Assembly: GCA_016182605.1 (NCBI GenBank)
Contig: JACPGE010000013.1
Span: forward strand, 1 to 42,765
Reading direction: 5' to 3'
DNA: 42,765 nt
From: Candidatus Hydrogenedentota bacterium
GTDB lineage: Bacteria; Hydrogenedentota; Hydrogenedentia; Hydrogenedentales; JAEUWI01
Shown in pieces: positions 5,857 through 23,593 of this stretch. The first letter of the stretch is position 1, and every line of letters begins with the position of its first letter. The notes under the pieces are model-generated. The model worked only from the letters and a program-made list of their open reading frames with translations, had not been told where the DNA came from and made no database searches. The translations under genes and the position numbers were made by a program.

Positions 5857-8800
5857 ATGCTTTTACAAAGCAAGCTTTCCCGTTTTCCCCGGCTCCAATC
5901 CATCTCCATGCGTATAGCGGTTCTCTATGGCGTTGCAGGTGCAGTGTGGATCCTGGCGGCGGATGGCATGATCCTCATTCCGGGCCTTTCCCCGGATCGT
6001 TTTTATGCCGCGGAGACCTTTAAGGGGTTGTCCTTGGTCGCGGTGACCGCATTGGGGCTTTATGCCCTGTTGCGCAAACAGGTGGAACCGCTGATTGCGG
6101 CACGGGAAGCCATGACGCAGGCGCGGGAGCGGCTCATCCGCTTGAACCGCATTCATGACATGTCCAGTGCCATCAACAGGATAATCCTTCAAGAGCGGGA
6201 TACGGAAATACTCCTGGAGAAGGCGTGCGGGATTGCGGCGAACCAGGGCGGTTTTTGCCTGGCGTGGGTGGGCATGCGCGGCGCGGCGCCGAACCGGGTA
6301 GAGGTGGCCGCCAATGCCGGTGCGGGAGATGCCTATCTTGCGCGCTTGGGCCATGTTCTGGAGGAAGGACTGCGGGCCCACGGCCCCACGGCAACGGCGT
6401 TTCAGAGCGGCCAGCCGGTCGTGGTGAACCACATTGCAACGGATCCGCTGATGGCGTGTTGCCGGGAGGCGGCGCTGGCAGCGGGATTGGGCTCTTCGGT
6501 TGCATTTCCGCTTCTTGTGGAGGAGGAGATCCGGGGGACGCTCAACCTCTACCGTGCGGAGGCGGCGCCCTTCATGGAAGACGAGTTGGCGCTGCTGGGT
6601 GCGTTGACCTTGGATCTCGCCTTTGCCCTGGAGACCGCGCAGAGGAACGAAGATCGCCGGCGCATGGATCAGGCGCTTCAATCGAGCGAGCGGCGTTTCC
6701 GCCTGATATTGGACAACATGCACGAGGGCTATCAGATCCTGGGCTTCGACTGGCGCTACCGGTATCTGAACGAGGCGGCCTTGCGGCATGGCCGCCGGCG
6801 GCGCGAGGAGTTGCTGGGCCATAGAATTATGGAGTGCTATCCGGGGATTGAAAATACGCCTGTCTTCGCGGTCATGCGCCGCGCCATGGAAGAACGCGCC
6901 GTTGAGAGTATCGACAATGAGTTCGTTTATCCCGATGGGGCGCGGGGCTGGTTCGAGCTGTTCTTTCAGCCGGTCGAGGAGGGAATCTCGATACTCTCGC
7001 AGGACATCGGCAAACGCCGGAACGCCGAAATGGTCTTGCTGCAGAGCGAGCAGCGCTACCACAGTCTGGTGGAGTATGCCTCGGACGCGATCCTGGTGAA
7101 TTTGGACGATCATGTGGTGCTGGCGAACCGGGCGGCCCTCTCCTTGTTTGGCGCCGCACAGGAAAACGATCTGCTGGGCAAAAGTCCGTATGAGCTGTTC
7201 CCTCCCGAATGGCACGACCAGGTACGATCCCGGATTGCGGTTTTGCGGGAGCGGGGAGAAGCCGTTTCCCCCATGGAAGAGCAGATCCTGCGTCTCGATG
7301 GCGCCGTGGTGGACGTGGAAGTGTCGGCGGCGCCCTTCCGCTATGATGGCAAGAATGCGATTCACGTGATACTACGCGACATCACGAAGCGCAAACTGGC
7401 CGAGGCCCAGTTGGAAACGGAGCGCGCGCGCGCGGCGGGCATTGTCGAGTCTGCCATGGATGGCATCATTTCGATGGGTGAAGACCATCGCGTCCTGCTC
7501 TTCAATGGGTCGGCGCAAGCGATGTTCGGCTACACGGAGACGGAGATTCTGGGACAGCCGTTGGAGTGCCTCATGCCCAAGCGCTACCGATCCGGGCATG
7601 CGGAGCATGTGCGCAAGTTTGCGATGACCGGTGTCTCAAGCCGATCGATGGGAAAACTGGGGACGATCTACGGACTGCGGCGGGACGGCGAGGAGTTTCC
7701 CATAGAAGCCTCGATATCGCAGACGCTGCTTCAAGGGCGGCAGGTCTTCACGGTCATCCTGCGGGATGTAAGCGAGCAGAAGCGCGCCCACGACGAATTG
7801 CTGGAAGCCCGGCGCCGTCTGGAGCGGACGGTAAGCGCGGGGCATGTGGGATTGTGGGAATGGAACCTCGAGACGGACGAGGTGTATTTTTCTCCGGAAT
7901 GGAAGCGGCAACTGGGTTTTGACGACAGCGAGGTGGCAAACCATTTCTCCGAGTGGCCGGCCCGGCTGCACCCGGATGACTACGTGCAGGCAATGCAGAT
8001 CGTCGACGCGTATATTTCCAATCCAGAGGGGGCATACGCGCAAGAGTTCCGGATGCGCCACAAGGACGGCAGCTTCCGCTGGATATTGGCCCAGGGATCG
8101 ATTGTGCACGAAGGTGGCGGCCGTGCCCGGCGGCTGATGGGAACGCATATCGACATTACGGAGCGCAAGCGGCTGGAGGAACAGTTCTTTCAGGCACAGA
8201 AGATGGAGAGCGTCGGCCGGCTGGCGGGGGGCGTGGCACACGACTTCAATAACCTGTTGACGGGCATTCTCGGTTATACGGAGTTCGCCCTGAACAATCT
8301 GGATCACAATCATCCGATTCATGATGATTTGTTGCAGATTTATCAGGCGGCGGAGCGCGCCACGGCGCTTACGAGTCAACTGCTCGCGTTCAGCCGCAAG
8401 CAAGTATTGAAGCCCCAGGTGCTTGATCTGAACGAACTTATCCAGGAACTGCAAAAGATGATAGGGCGGCTGATCAGTGAGGACATCGCCCTGATTTTCA
8501 TTCCGGGAAGCAACCTGGGCCGGGTCCGTATAGACCCCAGCCAGATGGAACAGGTGATCTTGAATCTGGTCGTGAATGCGCGGGACGCGATGCCCAATGG
8601 CGGCAGGCTGGTGCTTCAAACGAGCAACGAAGAACTGGACGCGGACTACGTGCGCATGCACGGCCTGGTAAGCCTGGGGACCTACGTGCTGCTTTCGGTA
8701 AGTGACAGTGGATGCGGCATGAACTCCGGCACCCTGCAATGCATCTTCGATCCCTTCTATACCACGAAGGAACAGGGCAAAGGCACGGGGCTGGGCCTGG

Positions 8801-14590: not shown

Positions 14591-15829
14591 ATGGCGGTTC
14601 CAGCCGGACACACAGTTCGAGGGCGTTGGCGGGGTGAAGGGGAGGTGATCGAGGTCACCGTGGCGGGCACGCACGTGGCCCGGGTGGGGGTGCTGCCTGC
14701 CCAAAAGGCGAGCCCGGAGGATCGCTCCACCGTGCTTTCGCCGCCCCTGCTCGACATCCAGGTTAACGGGGCGAAGGGCATCAGCCTGCAGTCGGACAGC
14801 TTGAGCACGGCGGCACTTCTCGAGATCGACGCTTACATGCAGCGCTGGGGCGTGAGCGCCTGGATTCCCACCCTGATCACGGGCAATCCCGATACGATGG
14901 AATATGCGTGCAGCATTATCGGGCGCGCCATGGGGGAGCCGGGCCTGCGCAAATCCATTCCCGGCATCCATCTGGAAGGCCCCCACATCTCCCCCGAAGA
15001 CGGCCCCCGTGGCGCCCACCCGCGCGAATGGGTCTGCCCGCCCGATGTAAACCTGCTCAAGCGCTTCTACCGCGCCGCCCAAGGCAAGTTGCGCTATGTC
15101 ACCCTGTCTCCCGAATGGCCGGAAGCCTTGGGCTACATCCGCGCCGCCCGCGAGATGGGGATCGTCGTATCCCTGGGGCATCACAACGCCGATGCCCCCA
15201 CGATCCGCGCGGCGGTAGACGCGGGCGCGACGCTCAGCACGCACCTGGGCAACGGTTCCGCGCCACAGATGCCCCGGCACCACAATCCGCTCTGGCCCCA
15301 ACTGGCGGAAGACCGGCTCTTTGCGTCGATGATTGCCGACGCGCACCACCTGCCCCCGGAAACGCTCAAGACCTTTGTGCGCGCCAAGACCCCCGCACGC
15401 ACGATCCTGGTGTCCGACTGTGTCGATCTCACCGGCTGCGCCCCGGGCGAATACAGCCTCTTCGGGGCGGCCGTGGAACTGCTGCCGTCCGGCAAGATTT
15501 GTTTGAAGGGCACCGAACTGCTCGCGGGCAGCGGCCTCATGCTGCTCTCGGGCGTGGTGAACGCCGCAGCCCTCACGGACTGCGCCATGACGCAGGCCAT
15601 TGCCTCGGCCACTTCGATTCCCGCGCGCGTGCTGGATGTGCGCCACTCCACGGCGCGGCCCCGCGAGGGCGGTGTGGCGCATTTCATCGCCTTCACGCCC
15701 AATCCTGGCGTGAACGGCATGGACAATGTCCGCATGAAGGCCGTATACATCCGCGGCAAACACGCGAGCACGGCGGACATGGCGCCTGCATCCGCTCAAG
15801 CCGAAGCTCCAGCGGAAACTAAAGCATAA
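14591..15829 (+). CDS. nagA: N-acetylglucosamine-6-phosphate deacetylase-like amidohydrolase
   Basis: The 412-aa cytosolic protein would deacetylate GlcNAc-6-P to GlcN-6-P in amino-sugar catabolism or wall recycling. Family marks are LLDIQVNGAKG, the metal-ligand Glu in PGIHLEGPHISPE, the His in SLGHHNADA and STHLGNG, IADAHHLP, and the catalytic Asp in LVSDCVDLTG. Several blocks deviate from textbook NagA (GHHNA for GHSNA, THLGNG for THLFNAM), so a variant substrate is possible. GGAAAGG 8 nt before ATG 14591 supports the start. The C-terminus ends in an Ala/Glu-rich tail. No nagB or transporter is adjacent. Confidence 0.85.
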   Translation: MAVPAGHTVRGRWRGEGEVIEVTVAGTHVARVGVLPAQKASPEDRSTVLSPPLLDIQVNGAKGISLQSDSLSTAALLEIDAYMQRWGVSAWIPTLITGNPDTMEYACSIIGRAMGEPGLRKSIPGIHLEGPHISPEDGPRGAHPREWVCPPDVNLLKRFYRAAQGKLRYVTLSPEWPEALGYIRAAREMGIVVSLGHHNADAPTIRAAVDAGATLSTHLGNGSAPQMPRHHNPLWPQLAEDRLFASMIADAHHLPPETLKTFVRAKTPARTILVSDCVDLTGCAPGEYSLFGAAVELLPSGKICLKGTELLAGSGLMLLSGVVNAAALTDCAMTQAIASATSIPARVLDVRHSTARPREGGVAHFIAFTPNPGVNGMDNVRMKAVYIRGKHASTADMAPASAQAEAPAETKA

Positions 15830-15922: not shown

Positions 15923-16315
15923 CTCCAGGGGCCCAGACATTCTTGTCTGGGATTGCGCGGGACCAAGGTTTCCCCTCAACCCGGCAGGAAAGTCCGGTCC
16001 CTTGATACTGTCCACGTTCCAGGGGCTCAGACATTCTTGTCTGAGATTGCGCGGGGCCGCACACGTTCAGCGCTATCCTCTTCAGCTCCGAAGGAGCGCC
16101 AGTCAGTTGCCTGGGGCGTGAGCCCCAGGATGAGGCCCGCCTCCACACCGAATCCGCGAAGCGGATGGCAGTCTACGTTCCAGGGGCCCAGACATTCTTG
16201 TCTGAGATTGCGCGGGGCCGCGCACGTTCAGCGCTATCCTCTTCAGCTCCGAAGGAGCGCCAGTCACTTGCCTGGGGCTCACGCCCCAGGCAAGTGACTG
16301 CCGCCGCTTCGCGGC
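15923..16315. repeat. Hairpin-rich intergenic repeat cluster
   Basis: The gap between nagA and bshA (about 630 bp) holds no credible gene. Three copies of a TTCT-loop hairpin (15932-15951, 16026-16045, 16187-16206) share the core CAGACATTCTTGTCTG. Two longer direct copies, 16014-16129 and 16175-16290, are nearly identical over 116 bp at an offset of 161. Each contains GCTCC-GAA-GGAGC and ends in a CCTGGGGC...GCCCCAGG stem. Further small hairpins are at 16152-16166 (ATCCGC-GAA-GCGGAT) and 16303-16315 (GCCGC-TTC-GCGGC). It resembles REP/BIME-type elements. Confidence 0.85.
16261..16300. repeat. Perfect 18-bp stem-loop
   Basis: CAGTCACTTGCCTGGGGC and its exact reverse complement flank a 4-nt loop (TCAC). 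It is the most stable element of the repeat cluster and lies about 155 bp beyond the bshA stop codon, where it could protect the 3' end of the bsh transcript or end transcription from both sides. Confidence 0.7.
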
Positions 16316-16456
16316 TCGATGGCGCCGAGCGCAACACCCCCGTCACTGACGTGCGTTTCGTGTCACTACGGCTGGATTCGTCGGAATAGGCAACGGCTGG
16401 CGTTACGTCGAGGAATATGCGGTCACGTGGGAGAGCGTGGCCGGCCGCAGTACGGA

Positions 16457-17620
16457 CTACACCCGGGCGCTTGCGGGGGCGGACCTGGGTTCGCAGTCTG
16501 CGAGGGGGTCGAGCATGCGGGCGTAGAGGGCCTCGTATTGCGCGACGATGGTGTCCTGGTTGAAGCGGGTGCGCGCGATTTCGCGGCCGTATTGCCCCAT
16601 GGCGCGGGCCTTGGCGGGATCGGTGAGGATTTCGATGCCGTAGTTGGCCATGGCTTCGATATCGCCGACCTCGGTGAGGTAGCCGCTTTTGCCGTGCTCG
16701 ATGACTTCGGTGATGCCGCCGCTGGCGGTGGCGAGCACGGGGACCCCGCAGGCCATGGCCTCGAGGGGGACGAGGCCGAAGGATTCGTGCTCGGAGGGCT
16801 GGAAGACGAGGTCGGCACAGGGGATGAGGTTTTCGATGCTCTCGTGGTTGCCGATGTAGCGGATATGATCGGCGATGCCGAGCTGTTTCGCGACGCCGAC
16901 GGCGGCCATTTTTTCGGGCCCTTCGCCCACCATGATCAGGCGGACATTGACCTGATCGGCCATCTTCTTGAAGGCGCGGACGACGTCCGTGACGCGTTTG
17001 ACGGGGCGGAAGTTGGAGATGTGCATGACGATTTTTTCGTCGCCTTCGACGAGGTGGCAGCGGTGATCGCTCTTGCCCTGGAAGCGGTCGAAGTCGATAA
17101 AGTTGTAGATGGTCTCCACGGGCTTGCTGAGCTCGAATTCGCGTTCGGTTTCGTCTTTGAGCCAGTTGGAGACGGCGGTCACGGCGCAACTGCGTTCCAT
17201 GGCGTAGCGGGTGATACGGTAGAAGGAGGGGTCGCTGCCGACGAGGGTGATGTCGGTGCCGTGCAGGGTGGTGACGAGGGCGAAGCGCCGCTCGGGGGGG
17301 AGCATGTCGCGTGCAATGAGGGCGGCGGCGGCATTGGGGATGGCGTAGTGCACGTGCCAGACGTCGATGTCGAATTCTTCCGCCACGTCGGCGATCTTCG
17401 AGGCGAGCGCCAGGGAATAGGGGGGCGTGCGGAAGAGGGGATAGGAGGGGGAGTCGACGTAGTGGCTGAAGATGTTCTGCTGGTAGCCCGTGAGGCGGAA
17501 GGGGGGCTCGCTCGTGACGAAGTGAATGGTGTGGCCGCGTTTGGCCAGGGCGATACCGAGTTCGGTGGCGAGGACGCCGCTGCCGCCGGCGGTGGGGTGA
17601 CAGGTGATTCCAATTCTCAT
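16457..17620 (-). CDS. bshA: N-acetyl-alpha-D-glucosaminyl L-malate synthase (bacillithiol step 1)
   Basis: The 387-aa GT4 glycosyltransferase joins UDP-GlcNAc and L-malate to give GlcNAc-malate, the first step of bacillithiol synthesis. The N-terminal ITCHPTAGGSGVLATELG is the BshA version of the GT-B donor loop. Other marks are LHGTDITLVGSD, ISNFRPVKR, and the EX7E motif inside EHESFGLVPLEAMACG. Length matches the family. It is the last gene of the methyltransferase-bshC-bshB1-bshA operon, 3 bp after bshB1. The C-terminal tail (about the last 15 residues) is poorly conserved. Confidence 0.95.
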   Translation of the reverse strand: MRIGITCHPTAGGSGVLATELGIALAKRGHTIHFVTSEPPFRLTGYQQNIFSHYVDSPSYPLFRTPPYSLALASKIADVAEEFDIDVWHVHYAIPNAAAALIARDMLPPERRFALVTTLHGTDITLVGSDPSFYRITRYAMERSCAVTAVSNWLKDETEREFELSKPVETIYNFIDFDRFQGKSDHRCHLVEGDEKIVMHISNFRPVKRVTDVVRAFKKMADQVNVRLIMVGEGPEKMAAVGVAKQLGIADHIRYIGNHESIENLIPCADLVFQPSEHESFGLVPLEAMACGVPVLATASGGITEVIEHGKSGYLTEVGDIEAMANYGIEILTDPAKARAMGQYGREIARTRFNQDTIVAQYEALYARMLDPLADCEPRSAPASARV

Positions 17621-17623
17621 GGC

Positions 17624-18352
17624 CTAGGCTCCACCTGGCGCGGGGGCCAGGAATTCGGGAAGCGTTCGGAATCCCATCCGTTCAGTGGTGTAGAGGGGCT
17701 CGCCGTATTCCGCGCCGACGCACTGTCCCCAATAGGCCGCGCGCGTGCGGATGTTGTCCCAGAAGGCCTTGGAGGCGATGTGGGTATCGACACCGGCATA
17801 GCCGGGATTGTAGAACTGGCTCTTGAAGGCCTGCAGCGCCGCGACCTTTTCTTCGAAGACGCCGCTCACATCGATGATGAGGGCGGGCGCCACCTGGGGA
17901 TCGTAGTAGGCGTGGTAATAGTAGATCCGCGCGGGGCGAAAGGGCTCCTGTCCCGTGTCGATGCGGTGCACGCCGGCGAAGAAGACGCTGCTGGTGACGA
18001 GGGCATGGGCGTTGGCGTGATCGGGGTGGCGATCGGGGGCCATCGGCGCGAGCACGGTGTGCGGGCGCAGGGCGCGAATGAAATGGATGAGGGCGAGGCG
18101 TTGCTCGTCGAGTTCCTGGATGGCGCCGTCGGGCAGGCCCGCATTCACACGGGAACCCACCTTGAGGCGTTTGGCGGCCTCTGCGGCTTCCAGGGCGCGC
18201 TCTTCGGGCGTGCCGCGCGAACCCAGTTCCCCGCGGGTGAGATCGAGGATCGCGGTGCGCAGGCCCTGGCCGGCAAGGTTCAACAGGAGGCCGCCCACAC
18301 CCAGATCGGCGTCGTCGGGGTGAGCGCCAATGGCCAGTACATCGCAGATCAT
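17624..18352 (-). CDS. bshB1: Bacillithiol biosynthesis deacetylase BshB1
   Basis: The 242-aa zinc-dependent PIG-L/LmbE-type deacetylase removes acetate from GlcNAc-malate. IGAHPDDADLGVGG provides the metal and base residues (His11, Asp13, Asp14), and DRHPDHANAH gives the further metal-binding His. RGELGSRGTPEER, near the metal site, and the late YGEPLYTTERMG are typical of BshB1. AHPDDAD has Asp where most family members have Glu (AHPDDxE), a minor change. Its ATG overlaps the bshC TGA by 4 bp, so translation is coupled. Confidence 0.95.
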   Translation of the reverse strand: MICDVLAIGAHPDDADLGVGGLLLNLAGQGLRTAILDLTRGELGSRGTPEERALEAAEAAKRLKVGSRVNAGLPDGAIQELDEQRLALIHFIRALRPHTVLAPMAPDRHPDHANAHALVTSSVFFAGVHRIDTGQEPFRPARIYYYHAYYDPQVAPALIIDVSGVFEEKVAALQAFKSQFYNPGYAGVDTHIASKAFWDNIRTRAAYWGQCVGAEYGEPLYTTERMGFRTLPEFLAPAPGGA

Positions 18353-19908
18353 AGTTCGATCTCATTCATGGTGAACGACTCCACATCCAGTTCCGCGATC
18401 AATCGGGGAATCAGTTCCCAGCCATACTCAAAGAGATGGGAGAAGACCGAGTATACCCTTTCCTGGGGTTTGCGGAAAGGCGCGAACGCGGTTTGCAGGC
18501 GCTGCACCTGCTGCTGGATGGTCTGGGATTGCGTATCGTCGAGGTGGACCAGGGCGCGCTCGAAACGGTCCCAGGCGCCACCCACCGTCTCGCGAAAACG
18601 GCCGGCATGGCTGCCCGCGTTGGGATACTTCTTCTGAAGGGGCGTCACGTCCAGGGCGATCCGATCCAGGAGGGCCTGGAGCCCGGCGCGGTGCGTTTGA
18701 AGGAGGGCATGGGCGGGATTCGCCGCACTCGCGCGCATCACGGTGTCTTCCAGGTCCGCCAGCGGCTGGAGCAGGGCGTCGGGGTCCAGGTGCAGCTTGC
18801 CCAGAAGTTTGTTCAGTTTCATGCTGGAGATCCGGCCCTGTGCGCGCGGATAGACCACCGGCATGGGGAGAGCAAACTGTGTGAAGAGCGGTTTGAGTTG
18901 TCCCCAGTAGGCCAGCTCGCCGGGTCCAGCGACGTACGCGAGCGTGGGGAAGAGGTGCTGCTGCACGAGGCAGCGCAGGGCGACGTTGGGTGTGAAAGCC
19001 TGGGGATCGTCGTCGAGCAGTTTCAAGAATTCGCCCTGCGTGTATTGGAGGCCGGCATCGGGCAGATGGAAGCGCCCATTCTCGAAACGCACGCGGCAGC
19101 GCCGGTTTTCGATTACAACAAAAAGGTTGCACGCGGCGCTATCCTTCACGACCTGCGCTTCGAAACCCGCCGTCTCCAGCATGCGGCCCGCTTCGTTCAA
19201 AGCGTGGGTGCTGCGCAGTGGATGCTCCAGTTCGTTCCGGAAAACAGGCGCGGCAGCCCTTCGCGCTTCGGGCAGGTCGGGCGCAAAAATCAGGAGTTCC
19301 GTGGCGGCGAAGAGTTTCGCCATGATTCGCGCATTCCAGTCGGAGAAAGAAGCCGACGCATCCAGACTCTCATGGAGAAAGGCCTGCACTTCCGCGCGCC
19401 ATTCGGATCCGGGAGCCTGATCCGCGGCCTCGTCGATCAGGGCATGCAGCGAGGATTCCACGGGCACATGGTACATGGGGAAGCGGTCGATGTCCTGCGC
19501 GGGTGCGTAGCTCAGGCTAAGCGTTTCATGCTTCTTCGAGAGGAGATGCGCGGTGCGCACTTCCTCGAAATCATGATCGTCGCTGCCGACCCAGAAGATG
19601 GGTTGCACGCGGGCGTTGCCCTGGCTGTTGAACTTGCGCGCAAGCTTCAACGCGGTGATCGCCTTGTAGATGGTGTACAGGGGGCCCGTCAAGAGGCCCG
19701 GCTGCTGGCCCGTTACGATCGCGTGTTCGTCACCGCAAATGCTGCGTTCGATTCCCAGGCGCTGTTGATAACGCTGCACGGCGTCCAGCAGGCCGGGATC
19801 CCAGGCACGGGCGGTGGCACTCGGCGCGCAGAATGCATTCAAGGGCTGCTCGAAAAAGGGCGACAGCGCGGGGGCTCCGTTGCAGTAGTCGTGAAGGAGG
19901 CTGCTCAT
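18349..19908 (-). CDS. bshC: BshC, putative cysteine ligase of bacillithiol synthesis
   Basis: The 519-aa protein matches BshC, thought to add cysteine to GlcN-malate as the final step. Diagnostic segments are IVTGQQPGLLTGPLYTIYKA, IFWVGSDDHDFEEV and YVAGPGELAYWGQLKPLF; the C-terminal third includes a predicted helical coiled-coil region. Length is typical. It overlaps the upstream methyltransferase stop and the downstream bshB1 start by 4 bp each (ATGA), which places all four genes in one coupled operon. Confidence 0.95.
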   Translation of the reverse strand: MSSLLHDYCNGAPALSPFFEQPLNAFCAPSATARAWDPGLLDAVQRYQQRLGIERSICGDEHAIVTGQQPGLLTGPLYTIYKAITALKLARKFNSQGNARVQPIFWVGSDDHDFEEVRTAHLLSKKHETLSLSYAPAQDIDRFPMYHVPVESSLHALIDEAADQAPGSEWRAEVQAFLHESLDASASFSDWNARIMAKLFAATELLIFAPDLPEARRAAAPVFRNELEHPLRSTHALNEAGRMLETAGFEAQVVKDSAACNLFVVIENRRCRVRFENGRFHLPDAGLQYTQGEFLKLLDDDPQAFTPNVALRCLVQQHLFPTLAYVAGPGELAYWGQLKPLFTQFALPMPVVYPRAQGRISSMKLNKLLGKLHLDPDALLQPLADLEDTVMRASAANPAHALLQTHRAGLQALLDRIALDVTPLQKKYPNAGSHAGRFRETVGGAWDRFERALVHLDDTQSQTIQQQVQRLQTAFAPFRKPQERVYSVFSHLFEYGWELIPRLIAELDVESFTMNEIEL

Positions 19909-20675
19909 GCGCCGGTCTTTCTGCCGATCAGGATCAGGCGGGGCGTGTCCGCGGAAAAGGCGAGGCCGGAATAACAGCCGAAAACACGCTCCACGGTGAG
20001 TCCGCAGCCTTCGAGTAGAAAGCGCATCTCGCTTTCGGTGTAGAGGCGCACAGATTCCATGGCCCGCGTGATTTCCGTGTTGTCCCGGAAGACCACGGTC
20101 AGCTTGTTCACGCGGTCGCGCTCCCTATCGATCCAGCGCTCTTCCACAATGCGCATGCCGTCGATCGTCCGGTCGGAGGAAGACTGTAAATGGGTCTCGA
20201 CATACTCGGCGTTCAAATAATCGATGAAGAAGCGGCCGCCGGGGCGCAAGGCGCGGGCGACGCCCTCGACGACGGCGTGATTCTCGCGGCTGTCCAGGAA
20301 GTAGCCGAAGCTGGTGAAGAAATTGGTCACGGCATCGAATGCGTTCTCGAAGGGGAGGTGGCGCATGTCGCCGCGCACAAGGAGGCCCTTTCCGGCGAGA
20401 GCGGTTTTTGCTGTAGCCAGCAATTGCGCGGAGTAGTCCAATCCAAACACGTGGGGGGTGTGGCGCGCCAGGTGGTAGAGGTGGCGGCCCGCCCCACAAC
20501 ACAGATCCAGCACCCGATCGTTCGGGCCGATGGCAAGTTGTTGCACCGCAAACTCGGATTCCGGGGCGGCCGATTCCACGGTGCGATGTGCATAGATGAG
20601 CGGATAGAGATCGTCAAAGGTGCTCGCGAACCAGTTCTTGTCGATTTCGTTTTCGGTCATGGGTTCGCGGCTCAT
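19905..20675 (-). CDS. SAM-dependent methyltransferase heading the bacillithiol operon
   Basis: The 256-aa class I methyltransferase has SAM motif I as VLDLCCGAGRHLYHLA, motif II acidic GLDYSA, and a post-I block RGDMRHLPFENAFDAVTNFF. It is the first gene of the operon and overlaps bshC by 4 bp. Green sulfur bacteria convert bacillithiol to N-methyl-bacillithiol with a SAM methyltransferase (NmbA; from memory, CT1040 in Chlorobaculum tepidum). The coupling here makes a thiol N-methyltransferase role the best hypothesis, but the sequence alone does not prove it. The start is ambiguous: in-frame ATGs lie at 20675 and 20660, with a further in-frame start at 20714. Confidence 0.85.
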   Translation of the reverse strand: MSREPMTENEIDKNWFASTFDDLYPLIYAHRTVESAAPESEFAVQQLAIGPNDRVLDLCCGAGRHLYHLARHTPHVFGLDYSAQLLATAKTALAGKGLLVRGDMRHLPFENAFDAVTNFFTSFGYFLDSRENHAVVEGVARALRPGGRFFIDYLNAEYVETHLQSSSDRTIDGMRIVEERWIDRERDRVNKLTVVFRDNTEITRAMESVRLYTESEMRFLLEGCGLTVERVFGCYSGLAFSADTPRLILIGRKTGA

Positions 20676-20783: not shown

Positions 20784-22253
20784 CTACGCCTCGCCGATCG
20801 TATGCAGCTTGAGAAGATTGGTGCGTCCGCCGACGACCATGGGCGCGCCCGCCACAATGATGATGGTTTCCCCTTGTTGCGCCAGCCCATTTTCCAGAAG
20901 CAATTCCTCCACCCGCTGCACCAAGCCGTCGATCTCGTGGAAATCCGTGGTTGTGATCGAATTGACGCCCCAGATCAGGGCGCATCGGCGGCGGGTGCTT
21001 TCCGTGTTCGTGATGGCGGTGATCCGGCAGGAAGGCCGGTAACGGGCAATGGCGGCGGCGGTGTAGCCCGTGGTGGTGAAGCAGACGATGCGTTGTATTT
21101 GCAGGGTCTCGGCCATGCGGCAAACCGCCTGGCCGATGGCGTCGGCATAGGAATTCATACTGACGCGCAACGACTGACGCCGCGACTGCAATTCGGTGGA
21201 ACGCAGGCGGGTCCATTTTTCCTGTGAAGGATTGTCGGCCAGGTCGCTATCGGTTTTGAAGGCGATCTTGGCCATGACGGCGCAGGCATCGATAGGGAAT
21301 TCACCCGCGGCCGTTTCTCCGGAGAGCATCACGGCATCCGTCCCATCCATGATGGCATTGGCCACGTCCGTCACTTCCGCGCGGGTCGGGCGCGAGTGAT
21401 TCACCATGGATTCCAGCATCTGTGTCGCCGTGATCACGGGCACGCCCAAGTCGTTGCAGCGCCGGATCAGGCGCTTCTGGATTACGGGCAGCTCCTCGAA
21501 ATCCACCTCGACGCCGAGATCGCCGCGCGCCACCATCACCGCGTCGCTGCGGATGACAATCTCTTCGAAATGTTCCAGCGCTTCGGGACGCTCGATCTTT
21601 GCGACGATGCCGGGGTGGTGGGAGTGCGCATTGATGATGGCGCGAAGCTCATCGATATCCTGCGGGGTGCGCACAAAGGACAAGGCCACGTAGTCCACGC
21701 CCAGATCCAGTCCGAATTCGAGATCTTTCCGATCCTTCCGGGTCAGGCAGGGCTCTGCGATGTTCACCCCAGGGAGATTGATTCCCTTGTGCGATCCGAG
21801 CATGCCGCCGCGGATGATCGTGCAGTGCACCTCCGGGGGCGCCACCGCGTCGACGCGCAATTCCAGGGTGCCATCCGCGATCAGGATGCGGTCGCCCACG
21901 GAAACATCCTGCGGCATGTTCTTATAGGAGGTGGAAACCTTCTGCTTCGTGCCCTGGAAGGATTCCGTTGTGATCGAAATCTTCTTGCCCTCTTCCAGGG
22001 GAATGAGGGCGCCCTCGGCCACGGGGCCAGTGCGGATCTTCGGCCCCTGGAGATCCATCAGTATGGCGGCATTGGCGTTAAGTTCGCCGGCGATGCGGCG
22101 GATGCGCTCGTAAACTTTTCTGTGGTGCGCGTGCGAACCGTGGGAAAAATTCAGCCGGGCCACGTTCATTCCGGCCTGAATAAGGTTGGAGATGCCCTCA
22201 TCGCTGGAGGAGGCCGGTCCGATGGTGCAGACAATCTTGGTTCGCCGCCGCAT
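20784..22253 (-). CDS. pyk: Pyruvate kinase
   Basis: The 489-aa enzyme converts PEP and ADP to pyruvate and ATP, the last step of glycolysis. RRRTKIVCTIGPASSS opens the protein. Further marks are MNVARLNFSHGSH, DLQGPKIRTG, VMVARGDLGVEV, ATQMLESM and DGTDAVMLSGETAAG, with a full C-terminal domain. ATG 22253 starts 2 nt after the lysC stop and has GGAATGGGAA upstream; an ATG at 22265 overlaps lysC and is less likely. Coupling to aspartate kinase and proximity to the PTS genes place PEP consumption beside a PEP-dependent phosphorelay. Confidence 0.96.
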   Translation of the reverse strand: MRRRTKIVCTIGPASSSDEGISNLIQAGMNVARLNFSHGSHAHHRKVYERIRRIAGELNANAAILMDLQGPKIRTGPVAEGALIPLEEGKKISITTESFQGTKQKVSTSYKNMPQDVSVGDRILIADGTLELRVDAVAPPEVHCTIIRGGMLGSHKGINLPGVNIAEPCLTRKDRKDLEFGLDLGVDYVALSFVRTPQDIDELRAIINAHSHHPGIVAKIERPEALEHFEEIVIRSDAVMVARGDLGVEVDFEELPVIQKRLIRRCNDLGVPVITATQMLESMVNHSRPTRAEVTDVANAIMDGTDAVMLSGETAAGEFPIDACAVMAKIAFKTDSDLADNPSQEKWTRLRSTELQSRRQSLRVSMNSYADAIGQAVCRMAETLQIQRIVCFTTTGYTAAAIARYRPSCRITAITNTESTRRRCALIWGVNSITTTDFHEIDGLVQRVEELLLENGLAQQGETIIIVAGAPMVVGGRTNLLKLHTIGEA

Positions 22254-22255
22254 AG

Positions 22256-23593
22256 TTATTCCCATTCCGCAAACGCGTCGTAGATGGATCGTACCGCGGC
22301 ATGGAGGTCTTTGTCCTCCACGCCGATAATAATGTTCATTTCAGAGGAGCCCTGATCGATCACGCGAAGGTTAATGCCCGCATTGGCAATCGCCGTGAAG
22401 AGGCGCGCAGCAACGCCGATATGGTGGTGCATGCCCTGCCCCACGGTGGCAATCATGGCGATGCCGCTCTGCAAACTGACGGAATCGGGACAGCAGTGGC
22501 GCTCAATATCTTCCACGATTTTCCCGCCCAGGGGCCCCAGTTCCTCGTCGCGAAGAATGAGGGAAATGGTGTCGATGCCCGTCGGCATGTGTTCCCAGCC
22601 CATGCCGTGCTCTTCCAGAACCGAAAGAATGCGGCGCCCAAAGCCCCGTTCATGATTCATGAAGGTCTTTTGCACGTTGATCATCGTGAAGCCCTTGCGG
22701 CCGGCAATACCGCAGACCGGGTGGGTGCTGGTGCGCGAGGGCACGATGCGGGTGCCCGGATCTTCCGGATCCATGGTATTCCGGATCTGAATGGGAATGC
22801 CATCGCTGCGGACGGGGTAGATCGCCTCGTCGTGCAGGACCGTTGCGCCCATGTACGACAATTCGCGCAGTTCCTGGTAGGTCACCTCGTCCATGCGCTT
22901 GGCTTCCGGAACAATCCGGGGATCCGTCATCCGGAACCCGGAGACATCGGTCCAGTTTTCATAGAGCACGGAACCCGATGCGCGCGCCACAATCGCGCCG
23001 GTGATGTCGCTGCCGCCCCGGGAAAAAGTCTTGATGCGCCCATCCTCGTAGGCGCCGTAGAATCCGGGGATCACAAAACGTCCGTTCCCCTGGAGGCGTT
23101 TGGAAAACAGTTCATAGGTCACGGGGTCCAGGTCGCCGCCCACGGTGAAGCGGATGCACTCCGCGGGATCCACAAAAGTGGCGCCCAGGAGTTCGGCAAG
23201 GATGCAGCCATTCAGGAACTCGCCGCGGGAAGCCAGAAAGTCCGCCGTGGGCCTTGTCCCATCGGGAGCCGTCTCCAGCGCCTTGGCGAGGCTGGCATCG
23301 ATGGCCGCGAAATGGGCGGTGGTGTCGAAGCGGACGCCCAAATCGCGCGCGAGCCCCTCGAAGCGATCGGCGATGAGTTCCCGGGGTTCCGACGGGTCGA
23401 GGCCCTGCACGGCAATACCGTGCCACGCATACAAGAGGTCGGTGATTTTCCGATCGTCCGGGGCGCGCTTGCCTGGCGCCGAGGGGACGATGAAGCGGCG
23501 GTTTGCGCCGGCGTGGATGATCTTTTCCACCCGCCGGATATTCTCTGCGTCGGCCAGCGAAGTGCCGCCAAACTTGCACGTTACCAGACTCAC
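22256..23593 (-). CDS. lysC: Aspartate kinase
   Basis: The 445-aa enzyme phosphorylates L-aspartate, the entry to lysine, threonine, methionine and diaminopimelate synthesis. The N-terminus has CKFGGTSLADAENI, with FSRGGSDITGAIVA and the ENWTDVSGFRMTDPR substrate block following. Two ACT domains in the last 150 residues (INVQKTFMN..., IATVGQGMHHHIGVAARLF) suggest feedback control by an amino acid. The start is GTG, supported by AGGAG 7 nt upstream. A short palindrome CTCCTTGGAAGGAG lies in its leader. It is 216 bp from rseP, so it may have its own promoter, though I could not identify one. Confidence 0.95.
   Translation of the reverse strand: MSLVTCKFGGTSLADAENIRRVEKIIHAGANRRFIVPSAPGKRAPDDRKITDLLYAWHGIAVQGLDPSEPRELIADRFEGLARDLGVRFDTTAHFAAIDASLAKALETAPDGTRPTADFLASRGEFLNGCILAELLGATFVDPAECIRFTVGGDLDPVTYELFSKRLQGNGRFVIPGFYGAYEDGRIKTFSRGGSDITGAIVARASGSVLYENWTDVSGFRMTDPRIVPEAKRMDEVTYQELRELSYMGATVLHDEAIYPVRSDGIPIQIRNTMDPEDPGTRIVPSRTSTHPVCGIAGRKGFTMINVQKTFMNHERGFGRRILSVLEEHGMGWEHMPTGIDTISLILRDEELGPLGGKIVEDIERHCCPDSVSLQSGIAMIATVGQGMHHHIGVAARLFTAIANAGINLRVIDQGSSEMNIIIGVEDKDLHAAVRSIYDAFAEWE

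Follow-up and report, generated by a model that had tools for sequence, protein, structure and literature searches.

The window, that is, the whole stretch of 42,765 nucleotides of Candidatus Hydrogenedentota bacterium DNA analysed here, contained a four-gene array on the minus strand (20675 to 16457), which we read with good confidence, from gene content and homology, as the N-methyl-bacillithiol biosynthesis operon of this bacterium. Considering that a complete set of bsh genes is found in an operon headed by a relative of NmbA, N-methyl-bacillithiol is very probably made by this bacterium, judging from its genes. The earlier note had proposed an N-methyl-bacillithiol pathway, and this was very probably right: NmbA was the best PDB match of the methyltransferase, the two were reciprocal best hits, seven of eight signature residues were present, and the gene was conserved together with the bsh genes.

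N-methyl-bacillithiol, the nmbA gene and the activity of the purified enzyme were already published, and the pathway was predicted in many phyla (PMC6282198, PMC12719100); the main texts of these two papers make no mention of operons. No pairing of Hydrogenedentota with bacillithiol was found in the literature searched, and the supplementary species lists outside that search could include relatives.

Operon layout and bacillithiol genes

Through inspection of the open reading frames and of the sequence, we found the genes in the order class I SAM methyltransferase, bshC, bshB1 and bshA, all on the minus strand. The first gene, of nmbA type, located at 19905..20675 and encoded 256 aa from the ATG at 20675; a second in-frame ATG at 20660 is a possible alternative start. 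It was followed by bshC for the cysteine-adding bacillithiol synthase (18349..19908, 519 aa, TIGR03998 and both Pfam BshC domains), bshB1 for GlcNAc-malate deacetylase (17624..18352, 242 aa, TIGR04001) and bshA for N-acetyl-glucosaminyl-malate synthase (16457..17620, 387 aa, TIGR03999). The NCBIfam scores were 499 bits for BshA (curated equivalog cut-off 274), 243 bits for BshB1 (cut-off 183) and 384 bits for BshC (cut-off 266), so the bacillithiol pathway is complete. These scores and the reading frames confirmed the claim of the earlier note that bshC, bshB1 and bshA were all present and overlapped or nearly touched. Its placing of the methyltransferase first, with an ATGA shared with bshC, was also borne out by the sequence, in which the methyltransferase stop and the bshC start overlap at 19905..19908. 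A second ATGA (18349..18352) joined the bshC stop to the bshB1 start, and bshB1 and bshA were separated by a 3-nt gap. The scan for sigma-70 promoters revealed nothing clearly above background.

Directly upstream of nmbA, also on the minus strand, were two neighbours conserved across the order (20784-23593): pyk, encoding a pyruvate kinase outside the pathway (20784..22265; TIGR01064, 540 vs 306 bits), and a lysC-type aspartate kinase gene (22256..23593; PRK09034, 497 vs 434 bits). Downstream of bshA, the region 15924-16316 contained three copies of a 41-nt repeat, which includes the inverted repeat CAGACATTCTTGTCTG. A 120-nt direct repeat with 93% identity holds two of the copies; elsewhere in the genome the core of the repeat turned up only three more times, on two other contigs. 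Beyond them, convergent with the operon, a NagA-like amidohydrolase of the GlcNAc-6-phosphate deacetylase family was encoded at 14591-15829, with a score below the curated cut-off.

The genome (6.76 Mb, 130 contigs) also encoded a bacilliredoxin (PF06491, 178 bits) and a YpdA-type reductase, the latter just over its cut-off (TIGR04018, 346.8 vs 339.9 bits). No glutathione synthetase above cut-off was found in the genome.

Relationship of the methyltransferase to NmbA

No NCBIfam or Pfam model named the methyltransferase, which gave only generic methyltransferase fold matches. When all chain sequences of the PDB were searched with the METHYLTRANSFERASE, Chlorobaculum tepidum NmbA (CT1040; crystal structure 9RI2) came first (E 2e-35, residues 12-252) and the runner-up was at 3.5e-16. 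With CtNmbA as the query against this genome, the operon methyltransferase was the best match (8.3e-35), followed by a protein in which a methyltransferase is fused to an ATP-grasp-like domain (1e-25). In the opposite direction, the window methyltransferase was searched against five genomes of other phyla (Chlorobiaceae, Armatimonadetes, Chryseolinea, Paenibacillus and Ignavibacteria) and matched the NmbA-type gene best in each (1e-36 to 1e-46), any second match being at least 20 orders of magnitude weaker; in the Chlorobiaceae genome that gene was the sole match (6.1e-37). Bidirectional best hits with E<1e-30 have served to assign NmbA (Hiras 2018, PMC6282198), and such a hit was obtained here, the reverse search being made in a Chlorobiaceae genome. 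The class I SAM motif I, VLDLCCGAGRH (residues 55-65), aligned with VLDIACGAGRH of CtNmbA, and identity to the assayed enzyme was only about 35-37%. Against profiles all built without Hydrogenedentota NmbA-type sequences, the window protein scored 271 bits with bsh-linked methyltransferases of other phyla, 241 bits with NmbA of known lineages and 221 bits with non-bsh methyltransferases. The nearest named relatives by methyltransferase alignment were Candidatus Hydrogenedentota MAGs, about 47-50% identical and sharing this gene neighbourhood; they were found with this alignment as the query, a single-protein query of genome contigs giving none.

Signature positions were defined by comparing 28 NmbA sequences of known lineages (Chlorobiota, Bacteroidota, Ignavibacteriota, Bacillota and two others) with 20 non-bsh methyltransferases, a small set; no Hydrogenedentota were included, and sequences were assigned to a group by their lineage and by the presence of BshC, independently of the residues. 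Eight positions discriminated (Y28, R31, A36, K191, I193, E207, V209 and Y235), and each of these residues occurred in 0-30% of the non-bsh methyltransferases. Seven were present in the window methyltransferase (Y28, R31, A36, K191, E207, V209 and Y235), T193 being the one that differs, and six (Y28, R31, A36, K191, E207 and V209) were invariant in 36/36 Hydrogenedentota sequences. Several signature positions map to, or next to, the N-terminal and late-strand parts from which the NmbA cap is built, and it is therefore a reasonable inference that these residues have a putative role in holding bacillithiol.

The tree joined the window enzyme in one branch with bsh-linked methyltransferases of Hydrogenedentota, Planctomycetota, Acidobacteriota and Gemmatimonadota. 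A second group comprised CtNmbA and the Bacteroidota and Ignavibacteriota enzymes, and the Bacillota enzymes stood apart. Methyltransferases of BshC-less genomes, together with the paralogue in this genome, made up a separate group (support 99/97). The best tree split all NmbA-type enzymes from all others, with a weak support of 72/28 for this split. The comparison with NmbA and its neighbours placed the window enzyme on the CtNmbA side of the tree, with the bsh-linked NmbA-type enzymes and outside the well-supported non-bsh group, as the earlier reading would require. The paralogue, the nearest in the genome, is the fused protein on contig C3 (L147, G000:C3, 2888-4810), whose 641 aa comprise an NmbA-like methyltransferase domain and then an apparent ATP-grasp (D-Ala-D-Ala ligase-like) domain. 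Such fusions, without the NmbA residues, were seen in several genomes of the order. One Hydrogenedentota genome carried a second, more distant NmbA-type copy (G044:C95:1118-1849) with 42% identity to the window protein.

The AlphaFold2 model of the window methyltransferase (pLDDT 93.7) had a fold compatible with NmbA and not discriminating. Foldseek ranked 9RI2 at 15, with N- and C-methyltransferases alike among the nearest folds, and in VIA-align 9RI2 (Z 25.2) was one of several structures tied within Z 1 of the highest score, 26.2. As a control, the same alignment was used to model a Chlorobiaceae NmbA, and this model ranked 9RI2 first; the control protein is about 50% identical to 9RI2, so the fold test is strong only near 9RI2. 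The cap domain of NmbA, with its unusual strand order and narrow pocket, is reported to be mispredicted by AlphaFold even for CtNmbA (PMC12719100).

Co-conservation and gene order in related genomes

In 60 genomes of the order, with NmbA-type methyltransferases called at E below 1e-40, the methyltransferase and BshC were both found in 49 and neither in eight; the three discordant genomes were due to contig ends. Through these counts, co-conservation of the methyltransferase with the bsh genes was upheld, and so was gene order: the methyltransferase adjoined bshC in 46/49 genomes, counting also pairs whose genes lie on neighbouring fragments either side of a contig break. In the other three (G027, G034 and G046) the two genes were on different contigs and the methyltransferase remained beside lysC or pyk, so strict operon linkage is not obligatory. 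The order lysC-pyk-nmbA-bshC-bshB1-bshA recurred in many families, with pyk absent from the stretch in some. The spacing between the methyltransferase and bshC was -11 to +9 nt in relatives; tight spacing was kept, the exact ATGA was not. Because it is conserved across the order, the four-gene arrangement is not due to chance.

The cluster nmbA-bshC-bshB-bshA also recurred in other phyla, with four loci each in Planctomycetota and Acidobacteriota; Gemmatimonadota, Zixibacteria and Calditrichota had the nmbA-bshC pair. Of 50 named genomes with a relative of the window methyltransferase, 38 gave a BshC match, and the eight with an enzyme of the non-bsh group all lacked BshC; these co-occurrence counts are phylogenetically non-independent. 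No BshC match was found in four genomes that carry an NmbA-type enzyme; these genomes could be incomplete, or the enzyme could act on another acceptor. Two Holophagaceae loci (L085 and L095) contained NmbA-type enzymes with the full core signature, in genomes whose BshC match was nil or very weak.

Long open frames resembling NmbA-BshC fusions in Acidobacteriota and Planctomycetota were rejected, as they turned out to have different frames or an intervening stop. A 657-aa methyltransferase-BshC frame (L166, G036:C129, about 5962-7914) lacked the end of the methyltransferase and the first 96 BshC residues, and was treated as a deletion or assembly join.

Predicted pathway, alternatives and comparison with known systems

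In the proposed pathway, BshA would join UDP-GlcNAc and malate, BshB1 would remove the acetyl group, and BshC would add cysteine to give bacillithiol; the methyltransferase would then methylate the cysteine N of reduced bacillithiol, for which we infer both the enzyme activity and the site of methylation. Compact spacing would allow the four proteins to be co-expressed, and the bacilliredoxin and YpdA-type reductase, encoded elsewhere in the genome, may use and recycle the thiol. The gene content, gene order, homology and co-conservation behind this proposal were directly observed. It is plausible that the methylated form predominates, with N-methyl-bacillithiol as the main thiol, because N-Me-BSH/BSH ratios were published for other nmbA carriers (PMC6282198).

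The methyltransferase might belong to the bacillithiol pathway and methylate another group or act at another step, and the candidate sites are the glucosamine N of GlcN-malate, free cysteine before BshC, the malate carboxylate, the thiol S, or a second N-methylation. The amino-sugar N-methyltransferases TylM1, CalS10 and KedS8 are among its fold neighbours, the assayed lineages (Chlorobium and Paenibacillus) lie outside its clade, and T193 differs at one diagnostic position. However, the remaining discriminating residues are all in common with assayed NmbA, which is the closest solved sequence by 19 orders of magnitude in E-value, and N-Me-cysteine was never seen in C. tepidum according to PMC6282198; we therefore consider this reading unlikely. 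Likewise, it seems improbable that the Hydrogenedentota-Planctomycetota-Acidobacteriota-Gemmatimonadota branch makes a different methylated bacillithiol, with the methyl at another site or with two methyls.

Still less probable, to a degree that we give it very little weight, is the reading that the gene encodes an unrelated methyltransferase for small molecules or macromolecules, and lies among the bsh genes by chance or to be co-expressed for housekeeping. The generic methyltransferase fold does match many families, and the three relatives that keep the gene beside lysC or pyk have bshC elsewhere. Against this, the methyltransferase was kept and lost together with bshC across the order, its link to bshC recurred in several other phyla, and the NmbA-type diagnostic residues were present. 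N-methylation of bacillithiol by an NmbA-type enzyme is the reading that we prefer.

With this reading, the N-methyl-bacillithiol prediction would extend to Hydrogenedentota and, via the same cluster, to Planctomycetota, a phylum with neither a documented nor a predicted thiol in the list of the 2018 paper (PMC6282198). The conserved nmbA-bshC-bshB-bshA order would provide independent genomic support for the NmbA assignment outside green sulfur bacteria, and the residue signature offers a testable means of telling true NmbA from look-alike methyltransferases in annotation.

The bacillithiol pathway of Bacillota (BshA, BshB1 and BshC) is similar in its three enzymes, here all over equivalog cut-offs, and in the accompanying bacilliredoxin and YpdA; the difference here is a single operon headed by a methyltransferase. 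CypM, TylM1, CalS10 and KedS8 are natural-product methyltransferases from an antibiotic or RiPP context, which is not known to include bsh genes. They have the Rossmann core with four-strand cap in common with the window methyltransferase, but matched it less well in sequence, by some 20 orders of magnitude or more. The likeness to NmbA of C. tepidum and Paenibacillus polymyxa includes full-length similarity, the class I SAM motif, 7/8 residues and co-occurrence with bshA-C, whereas the identity of about 35-37% and the separate branch with other uncultured phyla set the window enzyme apart. The C. tepidum genes are scattered (CT0548, CT1419, CT1558 and CT1040; PMC6282198), while here they make up one operon, and it is this well-conserved operon that constitutes the main added value over the known NmbA system.
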